DNA from: Gymnopilus junonius
Taxonomy: Eukaryota; Basidiomycota; Agaricomycetes; Agaricales; Galerinaceae
Direction of reading: 5' to 3'
NCBI GenBank assembly: GCA_015501075.1
Contig: JADNYJ010000016.1
Coordinates: 1 to 64,000, forward strand
Length of the DNA: 64,000 nt
Below, piece by piece: positions 20,755 through 61,276 of this stretch. The translations under genes were made by a program, and so were the position numbers. Position 1 is the first letter of the stretch. Each line of letters begins with the position of its first letter. The notes below the pieces were generated by a model that did no database searches, had not been told where the DNA came from, and saw nothing but the letters and a program-made list of their open reading frames with translations.

Positions 20755-20785
20755 CATCAGGAAAACCACTTTAGAACCCGGAGCT
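20755..20785. repeat. Left terminal inverted repeat of X
   Basis: Begins CATCAGGAAAA, nearly identical to the E1 terminus at 3334 and paired with the right end at 39215. The subterminal part to 20970 holds TGGACTGCTCTGG and GTGCTCTAGAGGG, similar in kind to the subterminal GCTGCTCTGGG motifs of Y. Confidence 0.75.
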
Positions 20786-20973
20786 AATCGTGGGATCTTT
20801 GGGAGAAAGACGTGACATAGGTGACTCCCAGATAGTCATCCAGTGCACTGGACTGCTCTGGTGTGCTCTAGAGGGCTCCTTGGGTAGAAATTACAATCGG
20901 CAACAGCCAAATGACAGAAAATGTATTAAAACTGCCATAATATTACAACTAATGATGATATAGCTTCTACGTG

Positions 20974-23900
20974 TTACCATAATGTCTGGTATGAATATTT
21001 ACTCAGCCAATTATTGATTAAGAATTTCTCTGCCTTGTCTAAAATGTTGGATGGCTTCCAATACTTCTCATCAGGGGCCTCTCTGAAAACAGGAAAGAGC
21101 ATGCAACTCTGTCTAATGCTTGACAGAGGTATGACTTCACCTGGGCACCTACCATCCTTGTCAGGCTTTGATTTGGATATTTGATACATTCCATGTGTTG
21201 AATTGGCAAGTGGGGGTTGACGTGTATACCATTCAACATATGCCAGAGGCATTTTTGGCCAGGAGGCAGGCACTGAGATAGGCTGGCCAGGAGCTGGAAG
21301 TTTGTCTGGAAGAGAGAAAATAACTTTGACTCTCCCAATTCTTGTACCTATCAGAAAATCAAGAAAATTGGAAAATTGAAATCACATTAGAAAAACAAGA
21401 CTTACCAGTCAGACCATGAGACTCAGCCTCATCTGTGGCAAGGACAACGACAGTATCAAACCTCCCATGAGGGAATCCTTTAGATCTTGGCACTGCTTTG
21501 ACAATATCTTTTTCCTCTTCACCATCTTGCAAGGCCTCAGGACAGAACCGAAACATCTTGTAGACATCCAGATGGGCAAAAGGAAGAGACAAATCCACCA
21601 AGGAGCGGTTTGTGAAACGTGAGTCATGGAAGGTACTGAGATATTTCTTGAGATGAAAAGAAAAATCAGGCACATCATGACGTTGCTGGATAACAGAGAT
21701 GGCACATCGAGGATAGTGAGGATACTTTGCAATGGCTTTGAGAGGGCGATGTGGTGTTGAACCAGTAGGGAGTCTATTTGAAGACTGATTACTTTGAGTG
21801 GTAGCTGAAGTTGAAGAAGGTTGTTGTGGTAGCTGGCCTTTTTTTGCTTGGAGCTTTATGTCTAATGATGTGTTAAAGTAAGTTATCTTTTCCTGTTGAG
21901 ACAACCAACGTATCATCTGTGGGAACTCATCTCATTGATTAGTTGCTCGCCAACCATGCTTTGCAAAGTCGATATGGAGATGTTCAAACATCTCAGTGTT
22001 GTAGTTGTTGGTCATCCCAAAGAGCTCGATACTGTCGACGTAGTGTATTAGAGAGTGAAGTTTTGGGAGATTAAGATGTTCTTGGCACTGAATGTTGATG
22101 AAGTATTGTTTGTTATCATGGAACTCCTCCAGAGCGTTCTTCATGTAGTCCAAAGTTTCCTTGTTGTGAGAGGTATACTGAGCTAGATAAATAAAATCGA
22201 GAAGGGCTTTGACAGCCTTGATTCCTTGTTGAGCCATCAGGCTGACCAAGCAGCCAAGAAGGATCTTCGCCATGTTTTTGCATTCACTGCCAGAGATCTG
22301 AGAAAGCTTGGATATGCCATTCTTGAATTGCCATAAACCATACCCTAGAGGAAGAGACTGGATGCATTGGTCAAGGACCTTCTCTCCAAGTATCCTCTGA
22401 CACCACCCAATCAGATGTTTGAATATACCCTGGTACAGCTGATGGAGAACATCGGGAGTGATAGACTTGTGGATGTTGGTGTAGGGGAGATCCTTCCAAA
22501 ATGGAGCAAAGACACCTCCTGCCACGTCTTGGGACATACATTCCTTGTGAAACTCCTTGGGTGAATCACCAGCATTTCTTCATGTGGTATTAATGACACC
22601 CTCTGTCCAAAGCTTTGTGCAGGGTTCTGATGTTCTCAGCTCATGTAGGGAGATTGCAGGGCACTGGCATTTTGGGCATGTTCCATACTTCGTGCAGGCA
22701 ACAAGACACTGCTCAGGGTAGTCCGCAACATAAGAAGCAAGGATTAAAATACCAGATGAACACCCCCATCACTGCAAGGCATAAGAACACCATCCTTTCT
22801 GGCCTTCACAAATGGCTCCAAGATAATCCTCATGGCTTCATGGAATATTCATTGGACCTTTGAGTGATGTTCGAATTCTGTCATTTTGCTACGATCGAGT
22901 TTGTCAACAGAAAGGTAAGCGATGAGGATACAAGCATTTTTGCTTGGTTTGCGCCTTGTAGCCTTGGAAGGTTTCCGATTGTCAGATATACAGGATATGC
23001 TGATTTTCCTCCAGAGAACCGAGTGAGCTGGGTCTTGTCTGTTGCAATGATAATTGGTGCCACTGTTGCCCCTTCTGGTAACAGTGCCTACAAAAGAGGA
23101 TTCAGTGAGGCTCAGAAGGTTGAAGTATTTCAACAGTACCTGGACTGCGTGCCACCATTTGGCTGTCCACATTTCAGAAAAGATACGTGAAGTCCTAGAT
23201 GTGTGCTTAGCATACACCTTCTTCGGTGCATATATGATTTCCATCTTGAAAGCAGGATCTGCAAAGAGCATCTTGACTGCTTCGACTGGATCTCGGAATC
23301 GTATGGTATAAACATCATTGGGATTGCTTCTGAATGAAAGGCTTCTCTCTTGCCAGACACCCACACGATCTGGAATTGAATCAACCTTCTGTAGTAGAGC
23401 GCGCATGTTGTTATAAGATAGACCAAGCTTCTCTCTTATCTGTGTGAACTATAAGACATGAGATGCAGTCCTGGAGACAAAGAGACGTACCCCAGGCACT
23501 GATAGTAAACGATCAGTTGCGTTCTGACCTGGCCCATCTTTGACAGCCCACTCTGCAAATCTCCAGTCCAACTCAGAGCTGAATGGCATGTAATCCGATA
23601 TGGGCTCATCCATGACAGTGTCGCCTTCAGGATCAGTTTGGAAAACAGTAGTTGAAGGGGTCCGACCAAAGATCTTTCCAGCTGTTGGGTGCGGCACCTC
23701 TTCATGGGAGTCTTGTCTTCATCATCATCCAGGCTTCAATGCCTATTAGGTTGTTCTCCAGTCCTTGACAGCCCTGCTCGAGGTGGATCTGAAGGCAACA
23801 GAACATACTCATCATGATCAATGTCCTCTCTGGGCTCAATCTCCCAATCCGCTTCATTGTCTTCACCAATTCAGGAGGAAAATCCCGTTCATTCCATTCC

Positions 23901-24175
23901 ATAGGTATTCCATCACTTGCAACATCTGTATCAGGCTGATGTCTGGATCTGGTTTGGTTGCTTGCTGAATGTGGCTCCGAAGGCGATGGTGGCCTTGGTG
24001 TTGGCAATGGAGGTAGGACATCAAGATCTTGAACCTCTAACTCCCTAATCTTGCCTTTATGATACCATGAGCATGATTTTGCAGCTGAAAGATGGGTGTT
24101 GAGCCTGCGACTGGTCTTAAAGTGTCGTCCACATGCAGGGCACTGGGGAACGGATTCTTCTAGTATGAGCGGCAT
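20974..24175 (-). pseudogene. Plavaka-type transposase B (element X)
   Basis: Start at 24175: MPLILEESVPQCPACGRHFKTSR, a C2H2 finger with H...C. Then a variable acidic linker, FSSELDWRFAEWAVKDGPGQN, EKLGLSYNNMRAL, FRDPVEAVKMLF, and KWWHAVQ at the end of an exon. A 60-base intron is followed by LPEGATVAPIIIATDKTQLTR, the presumed first catalytic aspartate block. After SAYPVYLTIGN come RRKPSKNACILIAYLSVDK, DVLHQLYQGIFKHLIGWCQ, SIELFGMTNNYNTEMFEHLH and FLINNWLSKYSYQTLW. All domains are present, but the linker and the region near 22950 change frame, so it is probably inactive as it stands. Confidence 0.8.
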
Positions 24176-24234
24176 ATCGATAAAGTAGCAGGTAATGTCA
24201 GATGTCAATGTATAGGATTACTTGATCATCTACA

Positions 24235-24262
24235 GGGTATATATATCTGATTCTATAAATAC
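24235..24262 (-). promoter_or_regulatory. TATA-type promoter of transposase B
   Basis: TATTTATA on the minus strand, about 85 bases before the start at 24175, with an adjoining ATATATAT run. It has the same arrangement as upstream of copy A. Confidence 0.5.
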
Positions 24263-24459
24263 AGTTGTCAGAATGAGAGGAAGACAGACGTAGAGAGAGA
24301 TTTTCTTACAAGAGATACGACAGGAGGACAGCAAGATTGAAAGTGCAGATGAATGGGATATACTGATAGCAATGATTGTGACATGGAAAGGAGTGGTAGA
24401 CAGTTGGCAATAAAGGTCCAAGGGGGTATATGGGAAGTCAAATGTGAGTGAGTGAATAT

Positions 24460-24818
24460 AGATTATGCTGCTGGAACTTCAAGACTCTGACTCTTCTTGA
24501 CTTCCTTCCATACAACAATCATGTCTGTTTGAGGTCTAAATACTAACAGTCCATCACATATAAGGCCCAGAAGATCCAAAGAGTATAGAATAGTAGCACT
24601 CACAAAGTCTCTGAAATTTAGACCAAAAAGTTCTGACTGCCGACGGTAATGAATCCACCCTTCATATTTGATTTCTAGGAAGACTTCAATACAAGTCAGT
24701 CAGATGGCAGTCATTGGTCAATTATCAGCCTTGCCCTGTCCCTCTATCTCCCAATCTGACTCATAATAGTTGGCATTTCTGACAACAGAGAGTCCAAGGA
24801 TGACCTTTCGACTTTATG
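24460..24818 (-). CDS. Conserved block downstream of the small membrane gene (X)
   Basis: The minus strand encodes KVILGLSVVRNANYYESDWEI, then after an apparent intron ending CCTAG a block with KYEGWIHYRRQSELFGLNF, FVSATILYSLDLLGL and VFRPQTDMIVVWKEV, ending near 24475. Element E1 has a recognisable but broken counterpart (YEGWI-Y). Conservation of protein rather than DNA suggests a real gene or the 3' exons of the small gene at 24820. Function unknown. Confidence 0.35.
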
Positions 24819-24819
24819 G

Positions 24820-24969
24820 CTAGATAAGCCAGTTGTTGTCCATGCTGTCCTCTCTAAGCTGAGAGATAATGATTTCATCAATTTCAGGAGCAGCTAGCAG
24901 TCTGTAAAGAGCTGAGAAGGACAACAACAGAGTAAGGAGAAGGAAGGATTCAACAAGAAAGGCTGGCAT
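24820..24969 (-). CDS. Small single-pass membrane protein, 49 residues (X)
   Basis: MPAFLVESF, a hydrophobic helix (LLLTLLLSFSALYRLL), then APEIDEIIISQL and an acidic tail ending NNWLI. An upstream ATG is followed by a stop, so the start at 24969 is the only one in this frame. The related 50-residue frame in E1 has the same helix-YRLL-xPE-D-II layout. Both copies keep the stop at the same place. It may be a true small protein or the first exon of a larger one. Confidence 0.5.
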   Translation of the reverse strand: MPAFLVESFLLLTLLLSFSALYRLLAAPEIDEIIISQLREDSMDNNWLI

Positions 24970-25133
24970 CAGAGGGACATGGAAGCGAAGGAAGAGATGC
25001 TTATTTTTGGACTCTTACAGAAGCCAAGTTGAATATTTCTCAGCCTCCAGAGATTATTACAGAGCTTTGCAAGACATCTATCTATTGACTGAACAGAGGA
25101 ACACATATGTATATAGGATATCTAACATAAAAT

Positions 25134-25954
25134 TCAATCTTCATAGTAAATTTCCCAAAGAGTCCTTCTCCTCTGAAGGCATCCTTGTAGAGACTTCATT
25201 TGAAGAGTCACTGCATTAAGACGCCTTGTCAGCCGTCTCCCTCCCTCAGACCTCTTGTCAGGGTGCCACCGCAGCAGATGTTGAAGGCTGTGGTATTTAT
25301 CAGAAAGAATGATAATTTTTGCCTTGAGGGTGACCACTTTATTCTGCTTATCAAACGGCTTGCGAGAGCGGACTCTCACCCCCTTCTGCAGAGGTTCTGA
25401 AAGATGGAATGGGGAAAGGAGCTGCTGAGAACTGACAGGCTGTGACCCTTCTTGCAGACGCTGAGGTGTGAGAGGCTGAGAGGCTATGAGTTGCTGAGAC
25501 GAAGATTCACAGCGTACAGTGGAGCTGTCTGCTGTAGATAGAAAATTGTTGGCCTGTTGCTGGACCTCGTTAACTGTATTAGAATTTGATACGGTTGGAG
25601 GGATGACTTTAAGTAGAATGGGGCTTGAACTCTCATTCGTTGCGTGATGCCCAGAGGAAGGCCAATCATAAAAAATGTTGGGATGAGGCGTGAAACCTTC
25701 AATACGCTAAACATGTACTTGAATTAGAAGCTACTTAATATGAATGAAAACATTACATGTACCTGATATCCAAAATCCTCAGCATCACGATTATGCGCCA
25801 AGTTGAACTCATTGATGTTGGGATAATTGCCAGGCCCAATGAAGGGAGAAGAGTACTGCCTCTCAGAGAGAGGAGCTGGAGAACTTTCCCCAGAAACACT
25901 TGAGGGGACTTTCTCTGCAGCAACAATCATAGAGAGAAGGAGGAAGCTCGACAT
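25134..25954 (-). CDS. Accessory gene of the element, X copy
   Basis: Two exons: 25763-25954 (64 codons, start MSSFLLLSMIVAAEK) and 25134-25706 (190 codons plus stop). The intron has GTACAT...TTTAG edges and leaves the phase intact, giving 254 residues. The N-terminus is hydrophobic and may be a signal peptide. The middle is Gln/Ser-rich (LTPQRLQEGSQPVSSQQLLS). The C-terminus is basic and helical (RSRKPFDKQNKVVTLKAKII, WHPDKRSEGGRRL, TLWEIYYED). E1 has a broken orthologue. It lies upstream of the transposase on the same strand, a constant position. No known domain. Confidence 0.6.
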
Positions 25955-25989
25955 GGTGGTGTGGAAAGACGTTAGATGCTGATTGTATA

Positions 25990-26200
25990 AGTTGTTTGTC
26001 TGCCCAGAAGGGTAGTGCCATACGTGTTAAGACTGCCAGGGTCGCATTGTCAGAGACGTAGGTGGGAATGTCGAAGGGAAAACTTGACTTTTCCTTCCAC
26101 TTTCCCAGAGAGAGTGTAATCAACAAACAGTTTAAAGCAAGACGCGTGAAGACGGACGCATTAACATGGGTCAGAGAAAGTCACGTGAAAAGAAAAGCGT
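25990..26200 (-). promoter_or_regulatory. Repeated upstream block, first copy in X
   Basis: Minus strand: TTTGTTGATTACACTCTCTC then TGGGAA-GT-GAAG and GACTTTTCCCTTC, with a CACGTGA core further upstream. The same order is found at 29900-30070. It immediately precedes the accessory gene start, so it probably includes that gene's promoter. Confidence 0.4.
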
Positions 26201-26439
26201 GTCTGAAATGACATCAGTCTACCGTAGTTGAAGCTCTAATAGTTGGTAATGAACTTTCTGAGTCAGTCAAACCAGCAAAGTAAGATTTAGACATGAAATT
26301 TTTTAGCCATTGATTGAAAACAAGACATTTTGCTGAGGAGGCAGACGGGACATGCCAGGTGAGGTGCCAGGTGTTGCTTGTGAAGGCATCAACCAGGCAG
26401 ATTCATGGCCGAGACTGTTGTTGCGCTTTCATTCTTCAT

Positions 26440-28071
26440 GGTGCTGCTTGATCTCTTCCTCTCATTTGCGGAACTCTTCTTCTCCCTTGACCTGATTCCA
26501 TATCCTGGTTTGCTCTTCGACTAACCAAGGGTCGAGATTGTAAAGCTCGTCTTCCTGACGTCGACGTTCAGCCTCCTGCTGTTGACGTTTGGTCTCCTGT
26601 TCAAGACGAGCCCTATCAGCTTTGATCTTCGCTTCCTCTTGCCTTGCTGCCTCTCTCTTTGTGTTCTCTGCCTTGATTCGAGCCTCCTCTGCACGTCACT
26701 TCTCCTCCTCTTCCAACTTCTTCGCTTGCTGCTCTTTCCTCCTCACATCGTCCTCCTTTCTCTTCGCCTCCACTTCATGCTGCTTGACTTCCTCCTCACG
26801 CGTGAATAAAGCAGCCTCCCGCTCCCAGATCTCTTTCTCCTTCCTCCGCGTCTCTTCCTCGAGCTTCTGGTATCCAGGTAAGGTTAAGGCTTGGAAGCTC
26901 TGTTGGACATATGGTACCGATCTTCAGCGAATGACGATTTGGATGAGAGAGGTCTGAGATTGGAAGAGGAAGTCGCGTACTGCATGGTCGCTGACGATGA
27001 CCCAGCTGAGCGATGGCCTGAAGGTCCTATAGATTCCTCGTGATGAAGGGCCGCTACATCGACAGGGCTCGGCCGACTCTCTCATTGCCTGGCAGGTCGC
27101 TTCTCTCTTTCACGTAATTTGTCACCGGATTTGCATCTCTCGTGCTCATAGTTCTTGTCATTATTGCGTTCCGAACTGTCAAGAGGTTCTTCTGCTAGAA
27201 CATGGTCCTCCTTTTCGGGTATAGTTTCTGTGATAGAAGGCCGAATACTATTGCCAGATCCAGTAGACCTCATACTTGCAGTGCTGCCTCATCTCCCAAG
27301 GATGTAGGGTTTGGGGGGCATGTCGCTGTCCTCGGCAGCAGAGATAGTCAGTTTCCATACCTCGGGTTTGGGAGGAGACCAGCCAATGCTGCGGTCAGAT
27401 GCAACAGAGCGGATGGAGCCCGATGAATGACCCAGAGAACCTTCCCACCTATCAGGGGTCACTGGAGGTTTGTCGACAGGTGGTTTGCTACGAGAGGGTT
27501 GAGATTGAGATAGTTCGTCTGGCTCTTCGACGACGTCATGCGATATCCAGGGGTCGGCAACGGAGGGTGTTCATGAGTTGGTCCATGAGGGCGGGGTACT
27601 GGGGGGTGCATGTCCATCCTGATCATGAGATAGCATGCTCCTCGAGTCCGAAGGACGATGGGCACTGCATGTTGGAGGGGGAACTGATGACTTCTCGCAT
27701 TCTTCCTGGTGCTGCGGGGGTTGGGGTGGAGGTGGCTGGGCCGGAACTTCGACATGAGGAGCCTCGTTCACAGGTGCAGTCCGCCCGCCAGGTGGCCATT
27801 CCTCTGTGGGACTCTCTCCAGGATTCCTTGGCACAGAACTTTCAGCACTCTGTTTGATGCTATTCATGATGTTCTGCTGCTCCTCGAGTATGATACTCTT
27901 CCAGTTCGGATTCACTGGGGCACCAGCGGCCCAGCGGCGTTGGGAGCGTTCCCATTCAAGCTCTATTGTATAGCCTGGTCTGGGATACAGAGAGAGCCTA
28001 AAAACAAAGGAGGGAGAGATGCAGTCAGTCAGGTAAGGCCTATGAGCTCCAGTCCAGGTCAGAGAAGCCAC
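26440..28071 (-). pseudogene. Coiled-coil protein gene, decayed (X)
   Basis: A near-continuous minus frame is interrupted by stops. The upstream part encodes PGYTIELEWERSQRRWAAG and a Pro-rich region (PAQPPPPQPPQHQEE). The middle is polar (ETIPEKEDHVLAEEP). The downstream part is a long charged helix, EEARIKAENTKREAARQ and ETKRQQQEAERRRQEDELY, typical of coiled coils. At least four in-frame stops lie in the downstream half. The plus-strand frames at 26582-26957 are only its antisense. It may correspond in position to the small coiled-coil gene of E1, but the sequences are not clearly alike. Confidence 0.45.
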
Positions 28072-28204
28072 TCACTTCGTCTCTTTTGACTACAAGTCTC
28101 CGGCAGCTACACGACCACCCAATGGCGAAGTCCTGGATCATGAATCACCCCTCGTCAAGCTCTATACAGCTCGCCAGGGACCTGGAAGCTCACGACCTTG
28201 ATTC

Positions 28205-28650
28205 GGGTTCCGCGATCGCCGAATATGAATGAATATCTCTTGATTTGGACTTTCTGTCAGCCGAGAGGTCATAGGGCATGGCTGGAGCTCTCGACGGCTG
28301 GCTAGGAGACTAAATGGAGCAGAGGCATGAGCAGTGTGGCTGAGGAGGGAGTCAGTTCAGTTGCTCGAGGCCCACTTTCAGCTGGAGGCATTCCTAACCT
28401 TGCATCTTTCGGCTCGTCATAGGGAGCTCGCTGTCGACCTGAAAGTCAACAGCTCACCTATCACTCCGCGATCGCCAAATATGAATACTGTCCATATTTT
28501 CAAGGCATTCAGCTCGTTAGGGACTGGAGAACTTACATGTTTGACTACCGCTCTGCGATCTCCGAATATGGATAGCTCAAGACTTCACCTTTCAGCCTTC
28601 AAGCAAGGAACAGCTCACTTGCCGCTCCGCGATCTCCGAATATGAATATT
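28205..28650. repeat. Spaced repeat with GCGATC-CC-AATATG core
   Basis: Four copies of CGCGATCGCCGAATATGAAT or a close variant, near 28211, 28468, 28552 and 28627. The last three are 75-84 bases apart, with AGCTCA and TCACCT words recurring between them. Partial tandem array, no coding signal. Confidence 0.6.
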
Positions 28651-28854
28651 GTCAAGATCAAGATCTCGACCCGTGGATGTCGAGTACCTTCCTCGCCATT
28701 TGGTAGGGCCCGGGGTTGGCAAAGATCTGTTTTGGCTTCACCGGAGCATTATGCTGCATTATGAATCAGAAAATGAATCACCGAGCAGGTCAGAGACACT
28801 ACCTTTCCTGATGGACAACTCTGAAGTCATTGTGCACTAAAAGGATATTTTCAG

Positions 28855-29195
28855 GCTTCAGGCCGGTATTCAAAAACGAAGGATAGTGCCTTCAAACAAC
28901 CCATGCATACGTTGAGTTCAGTGGTAGGGTATCCATTCAGAATGGTCAGTATGCAGGTGAAAGGACCACAGGTTCTTGCAATGATGGCGATAGCGACGGT
29001 ACTGCACACTCGACTCTGACGCTCTTGCACTCGCAAGTTGGTGAATGGCCAGACGAGGTCGTCGAGCCTGTATGACACAAGTGCTCTCCATAAGAAGGGG
29101 AAGGATCTTGTCGAATAGAGGGCCTGCGCCAAACTCGCGAGCCTTATCGGTGATCTGGTGAAGGGCAGTTTTACGAAGTGCCGTTGTTGAAGGAA
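28855..29195 (-). pseudogene. SF3B1: SF3B1 (HSH155) fragments captured by X
   Basis: SF3B1 is the HEAT-repeat core of the U2 snRNP SF3b complex. The first block reads [20 protein letters not shown] and continues [12 protein letters not shown], a well-known conserved stretch of the early HEAT repeats. After a frame change, [10 protein letters not shown] follows. It then jumps directly to [40 protein letters not shown], which belongs several hundred residues further on in the normal protein. An internal deletion plus a frame change makes this a nonfunctional piece. It is about 115 codons of a normal 1200 or more. Alternative readings are unlikely given the length of match. Confidence 0.8.
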
Positions 29196-29599
29196 AGACA
29201 CATCATTGGTTGCACCAGCTTCCCTGACATCATCCGTAGTGGCAGCGCTTCAGATAGTAGCTTAAAGGAACGGCTTCAGTTAGTGTCAAGAAAGAAAGGA
29301 AAAGTGTTACTCACGATACATCGAGAGGGCACCGCGAGTTGGTATTGCCACTTCGATCGCAGCCTCGAAGTATAACGACGTTGGAGAGGTGCGATCCGAG
29401 GAAGGGAGTAGGGCCATGAGAGCAGGTGGGTATGGAAGCCTGAGAGGCAGACCTTCGTCACTTAGAAGAGGGTTAGCAATGTTGAAGACAGAAGGAGATG
29501 TGCAAACTTACCAACAAGGGATGGGGAGGCAGCTACAGGGCAGCTACTCGAGTATGAGACCATCGCACATCGAGCACAATACCAGTCGCTGAGGGGAGC

Positions 29600-30070
29600 A
29601 GGGAAGATGACAAATGACTAATGGACTAAACAGAGATGGGTCAATATACTGCAAAACAGAATTATTTCTTTCTTACCTACCTCATTGATCAGCGAGCTCC
29701 ATGACTTTCCCGACCCTCCATCCATGGCTGCGACTCCCTCGATGCAGTCTTGCTTGATCATGTGCACAACGAGATCTGAAGGTGATGACATCGAGCACGG
29801 ATGTTGCCTTTCGAAGGGGGCGAGTCGACTTAGAGTATGGCCATGCGGCCTTGCAGGGATTCGGAAATCGGGCATTATGTCATAGCCGGTACATGCCTTC
29901 CGGGTCCAGAGGATGAGGAGGTGGGAAAGTTGAAGGGAAAAGTCGGTTTTCACTTCAACATTCCCAGAGACAGCAGGGATTAAACAAAGCTATGAGGACA
30001 AGAAGAAAGACGCGACCCGCATTGGTGAGTGCATGACCCAATTAAACCACGTGATTTTTCTGACAACGTG
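29600..30070 (-). other. Repeated upstream block and short frame, second copy in X
   Basis: At 29900-30070 the minus strand repeats the block at 25990-26200 (TCTCTGGGAA, GACTTTTCCCTTC, TTCCCACCT, CACGTG). The following frame (29618-29953) contains MSSPSDLVVHMIKQD but nothing recognisable. Probably a duplicated promoter fragment joined to decayed sequence. Confidence 0.35.
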
Positions 30071-30079
30071 CCTTGTCAC

Positions 30080-31050
30080 AAGAATTGATTTCGACTTCGA
30101 GTCTTATCTACCTCCTCCCTAACCTGTTCCGATGCCCTGGGATTGATGACACCCCACTACACCTCTCCTGAAGGCCGAGCGGAAGTCACGATAGATCTCA
30201 ATCTACCTTGTTGTTGCCAATGTGTATGGCGGCTGCAGAATGTCGAAGGATGGTGGCTCGAATGTCCAGGGCAATGGGTAAGTTCCTCTCTGCATAGGCC
30301 TGTATGTGAATACTTACCCCACATAGCTCGCTCTCGGTGCTTGACTGGCTTATCAGTCGTGCTATATGTGTTTGCCGATAACGGGAACCACGCAGAACAT
30401 GGGCAAGTGGATTATTGGGACATGGTACGCCTCTTTCACTATCCGGTGCTACCTTAGTCACTTTGCTGTTCTGATCCTCTCTGAGCAAGATTAACGAAGT
30501 TCGATAAAGATCGTAGGGATCTCAGGTCTGCATGGAGTTGCAGGACATGCAGGAAGATCTCGTATGTTACTTGGTAAGCCTTTTCTTATTCCAATACATC
30601 TCTTCGTACGGCTCACCCTCCTCCCTTGCAGGCTTTATGAACGTGGTTGCACTTGTTCAGGGATCCGTGGCCACCCGTGTCGCAGCCTACACCTGCAGCA
30701 TCACTGGAGCTTGCAACACACGCAGCCGCCTTTTCCTTGCAAGGTCTTGTAGACTCTGAGTCGCCGAGAGCAGTGGAGATCTCCTAGATCCACAGAATGA
30801 TGGCAGAGATGTGCTGGGACAAACAGCGATCTTCCGGGCGAGGGATCATTGACCTGCAAGCCCTACACTTGTGCCCTTCGCCTCCCACTAGTCTTCTGGC
30901 CAAGAGGCCTGTCTGCGCAGAGGTAAGCAGAAAATTGTTATGATACCACTTGATACTTGCTCCTCTGCACTTCAGCCACACCTCCCGCTTCGCAGTCAAC
31001 ATCTAGAGCACCACTGCAGCCCCAGACACACGCCGCGACTTCCTCTGTTC
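30080..31050. other. Stretch without a supportable gene
   Basis: Short overlapping frames on both strands (30143-30457, 30532-30759 and 30784-31002) contain some Cys/Trp-rich words such as CCCQCVWRL and HKCRACRSMI. None joins into a known domain. Confidence 0.3.
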
Positions 31051-31058
31051 GCTCTGCT

Positions 31059-31770
31059 TCACGCTCTGGGTCGCCGAGAGTGGGTGGCCTTGACATCCGG
31101 GAAATCCGGCTCTTCTTCCACTTCCTCCTCATTGTCCCCGTCCACACCAACAATGCCAGTAGCTGCCTGGGGTGGAACGACCTCCGCCGGCATGTCATCC
31201 ATGTCCATGGTGTACTGCTGGCCGGGTCTCCGGCGGCCGCCTTTGCGACCACCAGCACCAGCAGAGGGAGCAGCAGCACCATCAGCGGCGGCCATCGTAA
31301 CCTCCGGAGCTTTGTACAGGTTGATCCCCTGGCGCAGCTCCAGGTCCTCCTCAAGATCCCTCAAAAACAGCTCATAGTCCTGCTCAACCTTCCTCTGGTC
31401 CCTGCCTCCCATCCGTCCAATCGCACCCCTTGCCCCACTCGTCTCCCCCTCCTCCCCAGCCTCTTTCGCGATACTGCGCAACTTCCAGTTCCGGGGCCTG
31501 TTCTTCTTCCTGTGGTTCGGGTGGGTCTTCTTCACGAGGATGAGGTCCAGGATGCGGTCAGCGGGGAGGGAGGCGAAGTGGTCCGAGTTGAAGTTGGCAT
31601 TGGTGAGGAAGTACCCGAGGGCAGTGTCGCCTGGTTGGAGGATTGCACTGAGGTGTGTGTGGGTGTGGTAGACAAGGGAGGTGCTGCCCGAGGCTTTGTA
31701 GTACATCATGTCGGGCATCGACGTACAAGCCCCACACCCGCATCCTCGCCTTTGGGTCATCTTCTGGACA
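31059..31770 (-). pseudogene. NMD3: NMD3 C-terminal fragment captured by X
   Basis: NMD3 is the adaptor that links the 60S ribosomal subunit to the CRM1 exporter. The minus frame contains ILQPGDTALGYFLTNANFNS, FASLPADRILDLILVKKTHP, NHRKKNRPRNWKLRSIAKE and DYELFLRDLEEDLELRQGIN then LYKAP, the conserved C-terminal part of NMD3. The acidic tail (GDNEEEVEEEPDFPDV) fits the family too. The N-terminal zinc-binding region and core are absent (about 230 of about 500 residues remain). Coding quality is high and the frame is uninterrupted, so capture may be recent. The large plus-strand frame 30957-32042 is its antisense shadow. Confidence 0.85.
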
Positions 31771-32578
31771 AGAGCTGTGCCTGCAAGAAAGGTGAGCAAA
31801 AGATTTCCATGGTTCGAACCAGTACTCACTTTCTCTGCAATTTAGGCACCTCTCTCACCTCACAGACCACGTCAACCGCAATTCACAAGGTCCAGCCGCT
31901 CACAATGAGGGAAGAGCTCCCGAACCTTCACGGAGCAGCGAGGTCTTGTTGCTGCCTTCCAGCTCGACCAAATCATGGCAGGGAGGGTTGGGACAACCAC
32001 AGACATGCCCATGCTCCTCAGAGGGTGTCAAGAGGGAGCTAGATGAAATGGTAAGCCTCTGACTGGAACCACGGTGAATGAGTTCTCATCACTATCACCT
32101 ACACCCTCTTAGGCGTGTCCTTTCGGACCCCGCAGACACCAGACCCTCCCGACGAACTCCAACGTCTTCCAGCTCCTGTCAACAGTGTTGGAAGTGACCA
32201 GAATAGGCCTGACTGCTTGCTGGTCTTGGGACGTGAGAGCAGCTGATCCGCGACCTTCCTGGGATGGCAGCGTTTGTCCTGGACCTCTGAGAATGCAGGA
32301 GGAAGATGAAGGTCCAGGATGAGTGGTTGAGGGGTCGAGCTCCAGCACCACGTTGAGATGCTCGCCTCTTACCCTTTGGCACAGTTGGATTCCTTTTCTG
32401 CACTTTTTGCCAGGATCTATTTTTCATTTATAATGTAGATTAAAGTACCTGAATGTGATATTCGACTCTTGCTACAATGGACAAATGCTGTTAGCGCGGG
32501 AATGTGATGTGTCGCGTCATTTGTTCCATTTTTGGCCTCAACGTATGTTTCTCTTTGCTCTACCAAATTGATAACTCA

Positions 32579-47025: not shown

Positions 47026-47099
47026 ATGAAATTCTTGCTCTCTTAAATCCTCATCGTTGATACCTTCATTCGCGCTGCATAAGCGGGGGTCAACAACCC

Positions 47100-48885: not shown

Positions 48886-48889
48886 GTTC

Positions 48890-49320: not shown

Positions 49321-49321
49321 A

Positions 49322-51586: not shown

Positions 51587-51599
51587 GCAGGAGGTTTAG

Positions 51600-54500
51600 G
51601 GACAGAGTCAGGAAGGAGGAAGGGGACACGTAGCCTCGATGTAACCTCAACAAACATGCGTGCTGTGGAAGTGTGAAATGATCAACAGAACCTTAGTTTA
51701 AACTTACCAATGGCAGGACACAACTTAGTTTATATTAGTAATATCACTGTCGTCTGTCAAGGACCTTGTTCTATTAAAGAGAGAAGTACAGTAAAGATGA
51801 TTTAATCTACAAAATGAAAATTTATCTTGTCCCTTGCAAGAAATATGAGCATCAAAACCACCCAGTATGAATGAACTCACCCAAGGAATAGAGTAAATGA
51901 GCGATATCCCTTGTTGTACCCTGAGATACCAAATGTCAAACACTCCAGCCACATGGCCAGTCTCAGCTGACATATCAGGTCATCCTGAGCCAAGGTATGG
52001 AATGTGAGACTGCTCCGGCAGACCAGCAGGTTCCTGAGAGAGAGAGATAGACTCGACAAGTTGAAGGAGCAAGATTGACGTTAATCTTGAGTCGAGACGT
52101 CACCGGTCGATATTCGCCATGTAACTTTAGGCTATTGGGTACATCAGCCCCATATTGGATGAGATCAGTGAATTAGATGACGCATACCAGTCTGCAGATT
52201 AATGCTCCAGGAGATCAAGGTGTCTGTGCAGTGCCTTCACAATTGGTTGAGAGGCATGACCACGCATTGACAGATGGGCAGGTCCATTATGAGAGAGGGA
52301 TAGACTTGAAAAACTGGAAGAAACGATGATGATATTGACATTGAAGTGGTTTTCAACATTCCCCGAGTAACCTTAGGGTATCAGAAAATCAACCCCATGT
52401 CCAACAAGAACGCTGGACCCTATATTGGATAAGGTTGTTCATTTATGCAGATGGTCTTGACTCTTAACTCTTAAAATGCCCGTCTTTGCTGAGCTAGAAA
52501 TTAAAACATTAGTACCAGTATTAAGAGTTGAACTTGAGGAGAAAGCCTACTGATCTGAGATCTGAAGCCATCGTCCACTGAGAGTGTAAGATGGAGGATA
52601 GACAGACTCGACAAGTTGAGAGGAATGAAATCGATGTTGGTGTTGAAGTGGTGTGTTAAAGTTGTCTAGTTAATGTCAGTGTCGGTCGAGGAATGACAAT
52701 GTGAAATGGGGCGACCAAACAAGGAAAAGCTCTTCCAAAAGTGTCTTCCATGCACCTACACGAGAATGTCAGTCGAACAGGAAGATCACGACAGGGTAGC
52801 ATGGAGGAAGGGAGCAAGGAAGCCATGATGGGGCCAATGATACAACTCCAGCCAGAGGATCTGGAATCGGTCAGTTCATTTAATCGGATTTCACAGATCA
52901 ACTGTTGTTAGGCTGGTGCTTCTTGCAAGAACTCGAGCTTGAGCTTTTAAATTGATTGAGGCCAAACCAGCATCAACTGGACTCATCTCAATTTCTCTCT
53001 CTCTGTCACGACGCCACCCTCTAGTACAGTTGCTTGCCAGTGGTGCAATTTAGTGCTTCTACTGTTCAGTCTGCTCGAACAACTTGGTCCCCTCACCAAA
53101 ATTGTGCCCACCAACAAACTTGAATCAACTCCATTCACGCATTAAAACGAAGAGCTGCAAGTCTCCTCCAAAGGCGTCGTTGACATGCTTCCCCTTCGCA
53201 GCCTTCTTTCTCGGTCTCGTGGCCCCGTGTCCACCTCCAGTGCACATTCCTCTTCCATCGTGGCCTCCAGCAGCATTGTTGACATTCTCGACTCGGATAC
53301 TCGCTCTCCTGTGCCTGCATCCATCGCTCTAGATGACGTGGTGACAACTGGAAATAGTCGAGACCACTGTTTGTCAGTTGCCTTGATGGTCTGTGGCCTT
53401 GGTACATTTTCCATCTTCCTCTGCAGCATGCACCCAAATCGCTAATGCCCATCCGTCGTAGCCCTCCTCCACAACATGCCCATGCCCCATGACAAGGAAG
53501 ATACGACAGCAATGACTCAAATAGTCGAGACCGCTGTCCATGTGTTAACTACAGGGCTATCAGGCCTGGTACGTTTACCTCTCTTATACTTCCATCATCT
53601 CCATTCTAGTGCACTAACTTGATTTGCATAGTACATTGGTGTCGATATTGTGTCCCACTGGCATCTCTATTGCCATTCATAGTGCTGTCTGTAAAAGTGA
53701 CACATGACGCAGGTAACCAGTTCCATGTGGTGAATCTCATTGGTTCGCTTCTTCTACCTCCTTTCATTTTATCTTGTCTCTGATTCTCTTTTATTTTGTA
53801 GTCATGACTTCTTCATCTCATGATTGTCGGTACCACCTCAGCTGCCACCACAACAAAGACATGGCTAGCGTCATTACCGGAACTCTTGCCAAATGATCAA
53901 ACCCTACCATAGCATTCCGTCAACTGAAAGCTGGACGGCTACCGCTCCCTAGATGTTTTCTCCCTAGATGTTTTCTCATTGGTACCTTGGGTATGAGCAT
54001 AATTATCACCACCATGACTGCAAGCCCACCATTTTTTGACAGTTGACAGTTCACCCACTCCCATTGTCATCATTTACGGCACAGCCGCAACCACAGTCAA
54101 CATTCATTGATCAACCACCGATAACAAGACCAACAGAAGTCGCTTCGGCACTAGCACCAACAGCATTGGCCGTACCACCAGCGCCACCACTAACATCTCT
54201 GGTGTCGACCAGAAAAATCATTTTGTGCCTGTCAGCGTGAGTCTCGGGGTTTTAGAGCACCACGTCAGCAGCGTCATCCACGTCCTCAGCGCTACCACCA
54301 GCACTACTGGCTTTCCTGCTTTATTACTTTACCAACAACTTTTGTCTCTATCCTCCTCTCGTCTCGTCCTACGTATGCCAGTACAGTACCTATCCTGATC
54401 TGCAGGAGGTGGATAACCTAGGGCCTGGCCTAACCTTGCGTGAACTTCTCTAGCTATTCTTCCAGGCTTTAGGATTTCGCTTCTGAAATCCAGCGGTGAG

Positions 54501-56480
54501 TTGTTGAAGTGTTGCTGGCCCCCGTCACCCCGAGATATTTATGGCATTGATACAGTTGTCACCTCCCAACCTGGTCCCTACTTCGCTCCAGTGTTTGTCG
54601 ACTACGGCCTGGTGTAGGTGTGTCAGTTTATCGATACTGTCACGCATGGAGGTGGCAATAGTTTGAACTAGAAACCCTACCCAGTGCCGTGCCGCCATCG
54701 CTCCTTCCCGTGTATGCTCCTTTTTATTTTCGTTTTCATTTTAATTTTAATTTAATTTAATATTTTCAGGAACTCCAAGCTTTACCCTCTTCGTCGTCTT
54801 ACCGCCACTGCGGTGGCAGTCTTTCCTGCCAACACCAAGGACCAGGCCTCGGTAGGGTCATTTTGTCTACTTAATCTACTCGCTGCCTTCATTGTCCGGC
54901 AGAGCCCACCACCAATACCAACTGGTAAGTTTTCCTTTGCACCTCAAGCCCCACCACATCTCTAATGCTCCCCCGGGCAGCTATCCTCCTCATTATTGCT
55001 CTTTGAGCTGTGAAACGAGGTAATAGATCGGGGGCTATGGCAGCTTCTTCTCAGTTGCGAGTCGTGGTTGGGCAGGCTTGGTGGATGGGTGATGTTAATG
55101 TTGAAAGTGACAGTGGCTGGTTCGAATGTGAGTTCCATGGCGGTAGCTTTTCGTTCTCACAATTTTTGACTGATTTTCACGCAGGCAGAGAGCAGGATGG
55201 CTTGGTGTGTGAGTGGTTGAGCTTGAGGTTGACGATGATGACAGCAGGTTCGAAGGTGAGTTTGATGGTCATTCTCGAGATGTCGAACTGATTCGATTTT
55301 CACGAAGGGTTTGCAGCAGCTTCAAGAAGGGGCAAGGAGGTGACAGGCACGGCACTGCATGAGTTTAAGCATGCTAGAAACAAGGCAAGTAAGCACAACA
55401 ACACCTACACTCAAGTCCTACACTACTCGGGTCGCCAATTATAGCATATACCTCTTAAGTTCGGGTTCCACTAGCATCAAAAAGGCATAACGAGGTTTCA
55501 ACCAGGACATTCCGGTGATGGGAAAGAGATTTTTCTGAACGAGGAGACCCTTTACCATTGTCCTCCTGGTGGTTAGTTGTTATTCATCATGGTTTGACCT
55601 ATATCTGACTTACTCGCCTATCCAGCATATCATATCCGCGTTATCTTCTATCCTCTTGCCTACAACATCCCAATATCCTCATTGACCTTATCCCGCACAG
55701 GATCATCTGCCCGATATCCTAAGACTGCAGGATGAACAGATGAACATCAGTCATCGTAATTTGTCTGCCTTTCAGGTTTAGTCCTCAATTCTGCTTTCGC
55801 TTGCTTACCACTTCGGCATCCAGTACATCAGGTTTCGAGGCTCCACGCCGGGTTCTGAGGCTCCACGCCGGGTTCTGAGCTGGCCATCACACCGACGCCC
55901 ATCCCGCTTTCGACCTCCCAGCAATGTTCTGCTGCAACAAGGGAGTGCTAGAGATGAGGTCAGTAAGTATTCAATATTAATGGACCAATCCTTACCTTGC
56001 CCTCCTCTTTAGCAGGCCACTATCTGAGGTGCGAGAGAGCTGTGACTAGAAGAAATAGCCGAGACCCTGTCCTGAGTCGACAGTGATTGCGGCTTCTTCC
56101 CAGCCATGGAGAGAGAGGAGGGGATGGCTTGATGGGCAAGTGAACTCGAAGACAGCGACGACAATGTGCGCTGCAGCTGCCGGTGCTGAAAATGAGATAA
56201 GTAGGTGTTTGATAGTAATGAAATGCCTTTTACTTACCCATTCACCTAGAACTATGAACCGTATTCCATGACGAGTTCTGGGTTCATGTTCTCGGCGGAT
56301 TTGAAGCAGGGTGTTCATGCACCATGGGTTATAGCCGATACCGCTCAAGTTTGTAGTGCTGAAGACGAGGTAAGTAATCATTTAGATACCAATGAACTGT
56401 TACTTACCTACCCACAGAGAGTTCGGTAGTTCGTTTGAGTTGTTTTTGTGGATGAGAATACGGAAATGCATTAAGTAAGT
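51600..56480. other. Long gene-poor part of Y
   Basis: No frame exceeds about 125 codons and none carries a recognisable domain. The plus frames near 53185-53445 and 54043-54240 and the minus frame 53135-53512 overlap in antisense and are Ser/Thr/Pro-rich. Small tandem repeats occur: a 16-base unit near 53942-53973 (CCCTAGATGTTTTCT twice), a 20-base unit near 55838-55877 (GGCTCCACGCCGGGTTCTGA, about twice) and GACTCGACAAGTTG words at 52051 and 52606. It could hold decayed cargo. Confidence 0.4.
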
Positions 56481-56913
56481 GATTTATCCCAATGAACATG
56501 GACTAACAATGCCTGCCAAGATGGGCAAAAGCTTTTATGCAGGGAACCGCAACTGCAAAGGGCCTGGATCTGCAACACAGTCCCCAGCTCCATCTGCACC
56601 GGTGACGCCTATTCCGACAATGGTCCCATTTTCACCTTCGCTGCAAGTACACTCTGCAGCATCATCCCTTTCACACAGGCAGGCAGCCTGCCTGCCTGTT
56701 TGTCAACCGCAGGCTTCCTCCTCTTCGACTAAGGCTCAGAATGGCCAGTACTCAGTGTTGTTCTCTTCTACTGGTGGCCTTTTAAAGCCTAGACATGATG
56801 TTTAGATTTGGTTACCATTCATCCTAGCACAGACTATACCCACACCCTCTTTAGCATCACCCTCAGCATGTTTAGCATTATCCATCCTGTACTCCTATCA
56901 TCAATATTCAGCA

Positions 56914-57770
56914 TTGTGGCCCCAGTTTTATGTACATGTTAAAGTACCAGTGCAATTGATGGAGGCATGTGACCTCGGTTTCATCTTCATCGAACTGTTC
57001 AACATTTGTCATTCAATGTTCAATGTTCAGCTGTTTGTCTCTATGCCTGGCTTAATTATACCCCACTCAGATGCCCCTACTTGCACCTCTCCAATTTCTG
57101 GTGCGTCATCACCAATCCGAGGAGGACTGAATGGATATGCCTCAAATCATGGTCTCTATGTCGGTACATGTCCAGTAAGATATCATCCACCAGTGCATCT
57201 TTTGTACTCAATCTTTCAGAGTTCTAGTCCGAACTTTCATGGGCCATATTTCTATGATGCATATGAACAGTGGTGTGCCTCTCAATTCAACAAATACCCT
57301 CCTATGTCACTGGCTCAGTTCAAGGTATACCATTGTCTTGTTATATTTTTACAATGTTTGACCATTTCTAGGCCACATTCTTGCAGTTACAGGATATCCA
57401 GAGCGCAAATCTTGCACTGCTTTCGAGTACTCCCACCCCCATCAAATATAAGGCCAAAAAAAGGACGAACACTCGTAAATTAACAAAAATAGACTGGCTC
57501 AAGGCTGATCTCCGGTTAAAACTCAAGTTAGCCAAGGAAAAAGAGACATTGAGAAAGAAGTGGGGTATTCCACACCACCGGCCTGACTTTCCTTGTAAAA
57601 TGGCAGATCATTTGGCACTCGAACTCATGCTTCTGGATAAAATGCGTCACCGTCTCAGGACGCAGCATCGCCATTGGAAGGAGATCTCAACCAGGGTGGG
57701 AGATATTTCCTGATACATAATATGTGGCAGTTGCAGGAATTTCTGAATGCCAAGGTGAGTCGTCAATGGA
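56914..57770 (+). CDS. Unknown spliced gene upstream of transposase C
   Basis: Exon 56914-57324 (ISGASSPIRGGLNGYASNHG, FQSSSPNFHGPYFYDAYEQW, SQFNKYPPMSLAQFK), then a GTATAC...TTTCTAG intron. The second exon runs 57373 to about 57692 and is strongly basic (KYKAKKRTNTRKLTKIDWLK, LRLKLKLAKEKETLRKKWGI, DKMRHRLRTQHRHWKEI). It has the same position and orientation relative to its transposase as the accessory genes of E1 and X. It also ends in a basic helical segment, but exon 1 does not look alike. It may be a diverged relative or a replacement. An upstream Ser/Pro-rich frame at 56512-56805 may be another exon. Confidence 0.4.
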
Positions 57771-57908
57771 TGTGGCAGTGACTGATATTGTCTAATTTAG
57801 TCTTAAGGATTATTCAGCTTGACCTTTAATGTCTATATCTATTCATGCTCTTCCTGTCAATACAATATATTCATCTTCCCCATCTTCCTCATCTCTCGTC
57901 TGCGCAAA

Positions 57909-60900
57909 ATGAGTATTCTCTGTGAAGCAAAATGTCGTCGTTGGTTTACAAGCATCGGTTCCATGAATTCGCACCTTAGTACTTCAAGAAGTTGTGCCTG
58001 GTATGCAAAGGGGAAGCTGAGAGATCTGGGGCTCGATGATGACGATGACACCAATCCATTACCACCACCACCACCACCAGAGCTAGAGGACGACAATTGG
58101 AGAGACTACGATCCTCAGCAAGATCCTGATATTGACATGGAATTTGGACCCTATGAAGACGAATATGATTTTCTTCCTCCTGTTGCAGGACCAGGACCAC
58201 AGACGGCAGAAAATCAAATCCTCCATGGAGCGGCTAATACAAGGGCTTCAGCTCTTGATATGGATGATGACAAACTTTTTATCCAAATTGACGAAACTGC
58301 TGGTAGGATTTATCGGCGTGATCCTCCTCCAAGGCACCTTCAAGTTGACAAGGATGGTGATAACCTCATGGATAATGATGGTGAACCCAATCCCTTCTTC
58401 CCATTTACTTCAGAATTGGACTGGCGAGTAGCCCAATGGGCTGTAAAAGACGGACCTGGACATAATGCCTTCAATCGACTGCTAGATATTCCAGGGGTAA
58501 GCAAATATAGAGTATTGTCTTCTATACTTTCTGATTTTATTCAGGTCATTGAAAAGCTCGGGCTTTCCTATCATAATATACGAGGACTTCACCAGAAACT
58601 GGATTCAATTCCTGAGAAGGCTGGCAATTGGAAATCTGTCAAGCTGAGTTTTGACTCGAATGAGAGGCCAAATGAATCTTTCACCCTTCGATATCATGAT
58701 CCTATCGAAGCAGTCAGAAGCCTTTGGAAGGACCCTCAGCTTTCTCCGGAGATGGTGTTTGCTGGTCAAAAGGTTTTTTCTGACAAGACACTGAACAATC
58801 GAATTTTTACTGAAATGAATATGGGAAAGTGGTGGCACATTCTTCAGGTATCGGTTCCACCAACTGGCACATTACGTATTCTAACAACCCATCCCAGTCT
58901 CATCTTCCTCCGGTGCTACTCTGGCTCCAATCATTATCGCGACTGACAAAACCCAACTTACTCAATTTTCTGGCAACAAGGCAGCGTATCCCGTTTATCT
59001 TACCATTGGAAATATCCCCAAGGCTACTCGAAGAAAACCTTCAAAACATGCGTGCATTCTCATCGCTTATCTTTCAGTTGAGAAGATGGATCGTTCCAGG
59101 ATGAATGACCAGCAACATCGTTCTCTTGTGCAGCGATTGTTCCACGAATCAATGCATATCATCCTGAAGCCTTTCATCAAAGCTGGCACTGATGGCGTTG
59201 AAATGACCAGTTCTGACGGTTCTGTTCGACGTGTTCATCCTATTCTTACATGTTATGTTGCCGACTACCCTGAACAATGCCTGGTTGCTTGCACAAAGTA
59301 CGGCACATGCGTTAAATGCAAGGCTCCCGCCAATGACCTTCAAAACCTGATACTGGCAGAAAAACGAACTCAGACATGGACCGAACAAATTATGAAGGAG
59401 GCGAAGCAGCAGGCAGATAACAAGCCGCAAAAATTTCACTCATACTGCATGTCACATGATGTTGCAGGCAGTGTATACCAGCCCTTCTGGGACGGTTTTC
59501 CACTCTGTGACATTCATCATTCAATAACACCTGATGTTTTGCACCAACTTTACCAAGGAGTTTTCAAGCATCTGGTCCATTGGTGCCAAAAAATTCTTTC
59601 TCCTCAGGAACTGGACCAGCGCATTCGGGCACTTCCTCCTGCCTATGGCCTCCGACACTTCAAAAATGGCATATTTGCCATGTCTCAAATATCTGGGACG
59701 GAAAGAAAAAATATGGCGAAAATCCTCCTTGGCTGCCTTATTGGTCGTATGCCCTCACAGGGAATAGCAGCCATCACGGCACTCTTGGATTTCATTCAGC
59801 TTGCTCAGTATACTGCCCATGATTCCACTACTCTTGGGTATCTGAAAGGTGCCCTGGATCGGTTTCATGCAAATCGAGACTATTTCATCCAAACCGGTGT
59901 TCAGGACAACTTCAATATTCCGAAGTTCCATTCTCTTCTCCACTACATTGAGGCTATTGAACTATTTGGAACCACTGATAATTACAACACAGAAATGTTT
60001 GAACGCCTCCATATTGATTTTGCAAAGAATGGATGGAGAGCATCAAATCAGCGGGACGAATTCCCCCAGATGATATGTTGGCTTTCAAGGCAAGAAAAAA
60101 TCACCAGCTTTGAATTCTACCAGAAGAATCTACAACAGTCCCATGTGAACGTCAACTCTGAAACTATTCTACAGCCAACACCAGTGAAAAAGAAACCGCA
60201 AATTTCAATACCAAAACACCCCAGCCACCCAAGGCGTCAGCTGTCATTAATAGAAGAACAGAACAATGCACCCGATTTTTCATACTACCTCAAAGCCTTT
60301 CTGAACGTACTAACCCCTGATAACTTGAAGGTTCCCCAGAGAAACCTGGACACAGCTGTACTTCCTTTCAAATATGTCAACGCCTACAACTCATTCCGAT
60401 TCCATCCCCAGAGCATACACGATGACCAAGAAGAGAATGACCTTGTCAGAGCCCTTCCCCGTATGGCCCAGAATCCACATGGGAGATTTGATACAATTAT
60501 AGCCATTATTAATGATGCAGCAGAATCGACGGGTCTGGCCGGTAAGCAATATAACTTTTATAACTTGAAGGCTGAGGCGCTAATTATTGCTACAAAGGCA
60601 CAAGAGTTGGACATGTCCGTGTTATTTTTACTCTTCCCAAACAGGTCAACTCGAGTTATGGAATTCGACCTCGACCAACAAACTGGCCAAAGGAACCTTT
60701 GGTTTATATTGAATGGTACTCAAGGTTGGAGAAAGCAGCAAACGAGAAGCACGGCTTGATGTATCGTATCAAAAAGGTCCTCTCAACATCCATGACAACA
60801 AACTCAACCAGAGTACAAGGTGCCATTCTTCCCTTATCCCATATTCGCCAAAGCTGCATGTTATTCCCTGTTTTTCCTGATTGAATCCCAACAAGTTGGA

Positions 60901-60983
60901 CTCCAAATACTGTTCTTGATCATGCCTCCTCATTTTTCATTAATAATTGGCTTAGTAAATACAGTTATCAGACAATCTGGTAG
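57909..60983 (+). pseudogene. Plavaka-type transposase C (element Y), nearly intact
   Basis: Start MSILCEAKCRRWFTSIGSMN at 57909, a C2H2-like finger (C-x3-C...H...C). Then an acidic linker, FTSELDWRVAQWAVKDGPGH, EKLGLSYHNIRGL, DPIEAVRSLW and KWWHILQ at 58848. An intron of about 50 bases follows. IIIATDKTQLTQ, SITPDVLHQLYQGVFKHLVH, AIELFGTTDNYNTEMFERLH and PLSHIRQSCMLFPVF come next, with a second intron from 60541. Two lesions are visible: one base appears to be missing near 58914 in the SHLPP-GATLAP segment, and TGA at 60882 precedes an in-frame stretch ending NNWLSKYSYQTIW and TAG at 60983, the ancestral end. Otherwise complete, it is the best source for the family. Confidence 0.85.
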
Positions 60984-61248
60984 ACACATAAACACTATAT
61001 TAGAATTTATTGTCCAAAGATGTCAGGAGGGCCATGAAGAATCTTAATATTTCCAAAGACATTTAAAATCCTCTCAGATAAATGTAACAAACACAGAGAC
61101 ACTCATGGCCCTCTTAGAGAAATTTAACAATTTCAAAGACCCCAGAGATCTGCAAGGAATTCTCAGCTTTTCCAAAGACACCCAGAGATGTCTTAGAGCA
61201 GCCCAGGTTGCTAAATATGCTTTTGGAAAGTAGGAATTACCTGAGCTG
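60984..61248. repeat. Subterminal region of Y, transposase side
   Basis: No gene. TTTCCAAAGACA occurs at 61050 and again near 61169, with TCTCAGA/TCTTAGA and GCAGCCCAGG/GAGCTGCTCTGGG words. The pattern is comparable to the opposite subterminal region at 41460-42060. Confidence 0.5.
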
Positions 61249-61276
61249 CTCTGGGACCAAAGGCCTTTTCCTGATG
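61249..61276. repeat. Right terminal inverted repeat of Y
   Basis: Ends TTTTCCTGATG. In reverse complement it reads CATCAGGAAAAGG then GGTCCCAGAG, the partner of 41424-41452. Confidence 0.8.

Follow-up and report, generated by a model that had tools for sequence, protein, structure and literature searches.

The 64,000-nucleotide stretch of DNA analysed here (the window) comprises positions 1 to 64,000 of Gymnopilus junonius contig JADNYJ010000016.1 and holds two elements, X and Y, which likely belong to a group of giant DNA transposons of the cut-and-paste, PlavakaB-like kind that carry a TET-like and a DUF6532 gene (together, the cassette), with a proposed anti-silencing role. Y moved as a whole unit and is an intact, complete Plavaka-type element. 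Comparisons were drawn from a scan of the G. junonius genome (58.0 Mb in 898 contigs), in which C-numbers denote contigs and E-numbers the elements on them.

When the 300-bp flanks of Y are joined at a single TA, they match C534:118911-119510 without a break (93%, positions 1-598 of 600); the empty site and target duplication that a preceding sequence-only reading of the window had named as a check are thus present for Y, the duplication being of 2 bp. The left flank of Y has a further relative on C257 (85%), and C534 is therefore taken as a related empty site, not necessarily the allele. The parts of Y are as follows.

41424..61276, no strand: element Y, complete, 19,853 bp, with a TA duplication (termini; related empty site on C534)
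41424..41434, plus strand: Y terminus on the cassette side (exact CATCAGGAAAA)
41601..41842, no strand: direct repeats of 60 nt, degenerate, close to the end on the cassette side (repeat search)
42475..44299, minus strand: DUF6532 gene, well supported for the domain at 42749-43150 alone (PF20149; gene model)
44546..46779, minus strand: TET/JBP-like gene with HxD and distal His (gene models; alignment)
47171..47991, minus strand: pieces of a host helicase gene, presumably Brr2-like, apparently out of order (PF18149 and PF02889, the latter below cut-off)
49325..51595, minus strand: a pair of open frames, with weak kinase-like matches in one of them (below cut-off: APH E 0.008, Pkinase E 0.014)
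57909..60884, plus strand: Plavaka transposase, 954-residue model in 3 exons with no internal stop (PF18759; model)
61266..61276, minus strand: Y terminus on the transposase side (exact CATCAGGAAAA)

X, as assembled, has a more complicated history, and consists of the following parts.

20755..39215, no strand: assembled element X, 18,461 bp, with ends that pair two copies of one family (termini; flanks)
20755..20765, plus strand: X left terminus, CATCAGGAAAA (C91 copy, 98.3% over 299 bp)
20974..25340, minus strand: Plavaka transposase gene, its conserved parts interrupted by in-frame stops (PF18759; homology to Y, E135 and E44)
28854..29210, minus strand: fragment of a host HEAT-repeat gene, also in the C283 copy (PF22646; C283 93%; host gene on C888 69%)
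33225..36442, plus strand: TET/JBP-like gene, 11-exon model (models)
36677..38754, plus strand: DUF6532 gene, 534-residue model (PF20149; model)
39205..39215, minus strand: X right terminus (C283 copy, 98.8% over 487 bp)

The first 299 bp of X recur on C91 and its last 487 bp on C283, both matches stopping at the terminus, which establishes the X family as real. On C534, the right flank of X continues into sequence that is 96% identical, for 150 bp up to the junction, to the left flank of the C91 copy, implying an AA duplication for that pairing; a joint empty site for X's own two flanks was sought and not found. X as a single clean insertion was rejected, since the sequence upstream of its right flank on C534 is the C91 flank and not X's own left flank. 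The proposal of two giant elements accordingly stands for Y as an intact unit, while X in its assembled form joins the ends of two copies.

Exact copies of CATCAGGAAAA lie at five places in the window: 3334(+), 20755(+), 39205-39215(-), 41424(+) and 61266-61276(-). Four of these are the X and Y termini, at exactly the positions given by the sequence-only reading, which did not mention the fifth (3334). Allowing at most one mismatch, there are 15 sites in the window versus 3.28 expected, and the whole genome has 196 exact copies versus 32 for a reversed control pattern. Each element's ends had also been said to match one another beyond the shared 11 bases; this is so for Y (local score 11, reached by 2 of 500 shuffles), and X shows no clear mutual match (local score 7, reached by 148 of 500). 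Subterminal repeats of the kind known from CACTA elements were clear in Y alone among the three elements examined, none being found at the ends of X and E135.

The mirror-image layout originally described agrees with the gene order and strands of both elements: transposase exons occupy the outer left of X (-) and the outer right of Y (+), and the shared gene set runs in opposite orientation. Matches among X, Y, E135 (on C135) and E44 (on C44) are collinear. A Plavaka transposase at one end of each element is likewise confirmed by PF18759, over cut-off at 22400-23415 (-) in X and at 58569-59586 (+) in Y. These elements have the PlavakaB termini CATCA..TGATG, and the TA duplication of Y, as read from its related empty site, falls within the 2-3 bp of that group. 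The C(2)C and H(3-4)H motifs precede the last E in three of four transposase models (X, Y and E135), the C(2)C match in X being an earlier CxxC; the E44 model reads Tyr at the first His and does not have the H(3-4)H pattern.

PF20149 (DUF6532) scores over cut-off in both X and Y, and its pairing with the TET-like gene recurs across the genome. Exon matches clustered by eye gave 26 TET-like loci, 22 of which have a DUF6532 gene downstream on the same strand within ~4 kb, bearing out the view of ~20-kb Plavaka-type transposons with a recurring gene pair. The four loci without DUF6532 are those on C685 (less than 900 bp of contig left), C479, C334 (81-91 kb) and C316 (22.8 kb, +). A divergent transposase stands at the far side on the same contig in 11 of the 26 (X, Y and loci on C2, C307, C334, C135, C221, C476, C44, C509 and C367), supplying the several copies in one gene order that had been looked for; six further loci meet the contig end at or before the place where a transposase would be expected (C128, C755, C541, C283, C407 and C316), and nine have no far-side transposase (C240, C252, C685, C61, C601, C479, two other C334 loci and the second C316 locus). 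Because the best candidates alone were scored, an absence here counts as soft, and one insertion may be represented by several contigs through duplicate assembly.

Mobility of entire units is also seen in the M family, i.e., copies like E135. E135 and E2 are alike from one terminus to the other, 18.9 kb in all (98.7% identity across 18,802 aligned bases); at its left terminus, E2 has TATCAGGAAAA. E307 is a copy with a deletion in its middle. Amino-acid identity among X, E135 and E44 is 67-68% for the transposase, 47-54% for the TET-like protein (E2 included) and 49-54% for DUF6532; versus Y, it is lower for every gene (55-58%, 35-39% and 37-44%, respectively). The same family pattern in three genes, with Y as the outlier, fits joint descent as judged from these alignments. 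In all 21 comparisons, it is the third codon positions that differ most, a result favoured by the picking of alignments through protein similarity.

For the pair of TET/JBP-like and DUF6532 genes originally placed at the other end of each element, the DUF6532 half is secure (over cut-off), and the Pfam match of the TET/JBP half is weak. Tet_JBP (PF12851; curated cut-off 34.9 bits) matches Y at 14 bits (E 0.024) and gives no match in X at E 0.1, the X gene being recognised through relatives. Such relatives come from Gymnopilus, Coprinellus, Candolleomyces, Pholiota and Ephemerocybe. The H and D of the HxD motif are invariant in 10 of 10 aligned rows, several of which come from the same families; the distal His is found in 6 of 10, being missing or misaligned in P0002, P0005, P0006 and P0007, and is followed by Arg or Lys in X and E2 and by His in Y. 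A wider profile search returned five proteins, all of the same type, and reached neither the AG nor the PE type of TET. The predicted structure of the DUF6532 protein P0008 has a mean predicted local distance difference test score (pLDDT) of 38.

A separate set of eleven genomic matches to PF12851 scores over cut-off, at 48.9-66 bits. Eight were aligned, of which five could be read in frame, as HxDNGSAHPW (four) or HxDNRSAHPW (one); the remaining three were not read in a matching frame. Around HxD, the five differ from the Plavaka-borne type; the whole set is probably the AG type of Kyakuja-like elements.

Cytosine decay provides a possible context for an oxidase. Among E135, E2 and E307, C>T changes are found at 257 of 741 CpG sites versus 91 of 5280 other cytosines, a rate ~20-fold higher at CpG, with polarity approximate since the majority state was taken as ancestral. 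Such an excess is as expected if the host methylates the elements. Given CpG decay, oxidation of 5-methylcytosine by an enzyme that the element itself encodes would be a sensible function, although the decay does not prove it, and the TET-like gene likely serves in anti-silencing, judging from sequence. The ends have the CATCAGGAAAA core in common, insertion duplicates 2 bp, and whole units have moved, as the Y empty site and the E135 and E2 copies show. The transposase is at one end and the TET-like and then the DUF6532 gene at the other, both sides reading outwards. We propose that the transposase would cut at these ends and that the TET-like enzyme would oxidise 5-methylcytosine on or near the element and thereby relieve silencing by CpG methylation. 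DUF6532 would act as an accessory factor of the element, perhaps in DNA binding, and may be older there than the TET gene.

Several observations weigh against this account of X, Y and their relatives as transposons with a functional TET-like gene. (i) The X transposase is broken by in-frame stops, and the X dioxygenase is apparently broken too, as the homology matches seem to shift frame on the way from HxD to the distal His. (ii) Tet_JBP, although the best Pfam match of the six relatives (out of nine) that it matches, reaches only 23.0-33.0 bits in them, below its cut-off, and does not match the other three; a profile of three models placed human TET2 first in the PDB, with an alignment covering HxD and a weak E of 0.18; and the AlphaFold model of the TET-like P0004 (Coprinellus) has a mean pLDDT of 39. 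(iii) In the M family, non-synonymous changes in TET and DUF6532 are near the random expectation, with P 0.03 in one of six comparisons; the transposase has clearly fewer such changes in two of three comparisons, both involving E307. (iv) Matching dinucleotides flank only three of ten complete cassette-carrying pairs (Y, C334 and C367), versus 14 of 15 pairs without the full cassette. (v) A giant on C143 shows that the X/Y layout is common, not universal.

The seven pairs without a matching dinucleotide are X, E135, C221, E2, E307, E44 and C476. In five of them (X, E135, C221, E2 and C476), one flank is found again on another contig, where the flank facing it differs: C135, C221 and C755 have one right flank in common while the left flanks of C135 and C221 differ, and C2 and C476 share a left flank with differing right flanks. 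Such mixing of M family flanks fits assembly switching, or recombination, between near-identical copies, and a new mode of integration was not needed as this accounts for the flanks; E307 and E44 are misses without explanation.

The C143 giant measures 21,586 bp, has a GC duplication and ends that resemble each other, and carries a Plavaka transposase mid-element (55% identical to that of Y) and a DUF6532 gene near its right end in the same orientation. An interruption of some other element was considered and dropped, given the similar ends, the matching GC duplication and the transposase and DUF6532 gene inside. No convincing TET gene was found in C143: the best match (E 0.004, to one relative) is without HxD, and a 10-row profile gave nothing below E 0.07. 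DUF6532 is therefore not tied to TET. C889 and C240 each have a distant Plavaka transposase and a DUF6532 gene with no TET match, although element ends could not be fixed there. Taken with C143, these cases suggest that the association of DUF6532 with the transposase may be the older one, TET being a later addition.

The terminus itself marks a lineage, not the cassette, because most sampled closed pairs are without the latter. Among the first 100 of the 196 exact sites, ends paired within 25 kb gave 26 closed pairs: 4 of ~0.22 kb, 13 of 2.5-3.3 kb, 4 of 4.9-6.0 kb and 5 of 17-22 kb. The five long pairs are X, Y and those on C135 (with the cassette), C143 and C145; three of the 26 closed pairs carry the cassette. 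The 21 pairs of ~6 kb or shorter gave no TET or DUF6532 matches, sequence having been retrieved for 13 of them. The sequence-only reading would have been weakened by termini without the cassette in most copies, and in this sample it is. Pairing of ends by the 11-mer alone was rejected, since elements of 0.22, 2.5-3.3 and 4.9-6.0 kb have the same bounds, and C145, whose ends lie 17.3 kb apart, was rejected as a giant, being a 3-kb element with a large insertion.

The smaller elements form size classes of their own. Three of ~3 kb have ends like those of the giant M family and are likely non-autonomous relatives, with further ~3-kb pairs on C103, C113, C121 and C127. Two elements of 225 bp (C26) have the same terminus, each with a matching 2-bp duplication, and are like miniature inverted-repeat transposable elements; C102 and C168 hold two more pairs of this ~225-bp class.

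A third related element begins in the window, upstream of X; no right end for it was found when sought.

3334..3344, plus strand: left end of the third element (exact CATCAGGAAAA), with transposase remains at 3559-7357 (-)

Over 3334-7357, this left end and the decayed transposase have DNA blocks 74-83% identical to X.

The middles differ among X, Y, E135 and E44, and those of X, Y and E135 hold fragments of conserved host genes. In X, the fragment is a PF22646 HEAT-repeat piece, which we take to be SF3B1-like, with a 69% identical host gene on C888 and a 93% copy in C283. The Y middle has Helicase_PWI and Sec63 pieces, whose assignment and domain order we presume to be those of a Brr2-like helicase, with a host gene on C30 at 75% identity. 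E135 contains SH2_2 and HAM1_N pieces, the former presumably Spt6-like, with an 80% host gene on C445 and repeats at 94-100% on C221, C755, C2 and C476. No match was found in the E44 middle in the parts scanned at the limits used, the frames scanned being incomplete. The host fragments of X, Y and E135 are not common to the four elements (these three and E44). Between its transposase and DUF6532 gene, C143 has Spt6 HTH_44 (79.4 bits) and ClpB pieces by Pfam; two giant families (C143 and C135) thus hold different parts of Spt6-like genes, HTH_44 and SH2_2, respectively. Of the two Y frames at 49325-51595, the one without kinase-like matches resembles by eye what we assume to be a restriction-endonuclease-like motif, and the frames are possibly a cargo effector-like gene.

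Such captured fragments raise the question of whether the TET-DUF6532 pair is itself passive cargo with no role for the element. That middles hold fragments of at least three host genes, that most sampled closed end pairs are without the cassette, and that selection on TET and DUF6532 in the M family is weak or absent would all suit it; however, the pair keeps its order and place across families with transposases that are 32-45% divergent, the invariant HxD and the third-position bias run against it, and the host fragments of X, Y and E135 are not shared by these three and E44 in the way that the pair is. We regard passive cargo as improbable. It is also unlikely, though less so, that the dioxygenase is TET-like in ancestry only and acts on another base, on RNA, or in some other role. 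Scores below the Tet_JBP cut-off speak for this, as do the other activities left open for PU- and PE-type enzymes in PMC12730594; on the other side, Tet_JBP is the best Pfam match of the six matching relatives, TET2 is the best PDB match, and CpG decay suggests that the substrate is present. Chance pairing of a common 11-bp site around unrelated genes can draw on the 196 copies of the 11-mer, the weak match of the X ends beyond 11 bp and the lack of a joint empty site for the X flanks, but it is refuted for Y by the empty site, and the full-length E135 and E2 copies and the sharing of X ends with C91 and C283 leave it next to no credibility.

Giant PlavakaB-like transposons with a TET-like gene thus remain our preferred account. 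A more elaborate version would see in them a fourth type of transposon-borne TET-like oxidase, so far from few Agaricales genera, acting as a two-part module in which DUF6532, present in the older elements before the oxidase, would attach to the element and recruit the oxidase to the CpG sites there. The giant element would in this way re-open itself, and its variable middle would meanwhile shuffle fragments of host genes. This is a speculative scheme that we hold to be improbable, and more so than initially, because C143 has DUF6532 without a convincing TET.

TET-carrying Plavaka elements had been thought undescribed, which does not hold: in Kojima (2025; PMC12730594), TET+ PlavakaB families are reported from Agaricus bisporus and Gymnopus confluens, with termini CATCA..TGATG, i.e., the same as here, and 2-3 bp duplications, and escape from methylation-based silencing is proposed. 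The elements described here are like those in their Plavaka transposase, termini, duplications of 2-3 bp and TET/JBP-like gene aboard. However, the abstract of PMC12730594 places the TETs of Plavaka in the PE type, which is characterised by HxE, whereas here HxD stands in all 10 aligned rows; neither DUF6532 nor the phrase "gene fragment" appears in the main text of that paper, and both features are present here. Relative to that abstract and main text, what is new is an HxD rather than HxE enzyme, the DUF6532 partner, the host fragments (SF3B1-, Brr2- and Spt6-like) and the CpG-biased C>T decay.

Like KDZ (Kyakuja/Zisupton) TET+ elements with AG-type TET, including CcTET, the elements are DNA transposons with an HxD TET/JBP gene; unlike them, they have a different transposase. 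Large CACTA/EnSpm and Pack-type plant elements capture host gene fragments; to our knowledge, a TET-like gene and DUF6532 are no part of either. Large size and the broad clade CMCT are shared with them; passages of PMC6431247 name EnSpm elements of 16-20 kb in Chondrus crispus.

Ultimately, the host fragments captured here point to an ability of fungal Plavaka elements to acquire and disperse pieces of genes, like the Pack-type elements of plants, and the recurring DUF6532 partner gives functional context to a family without known function. With near-identical copies, a clean empty site and CpG decay, these elements thus provide a testable case of a transposon that may erase a silencing mark of its host.

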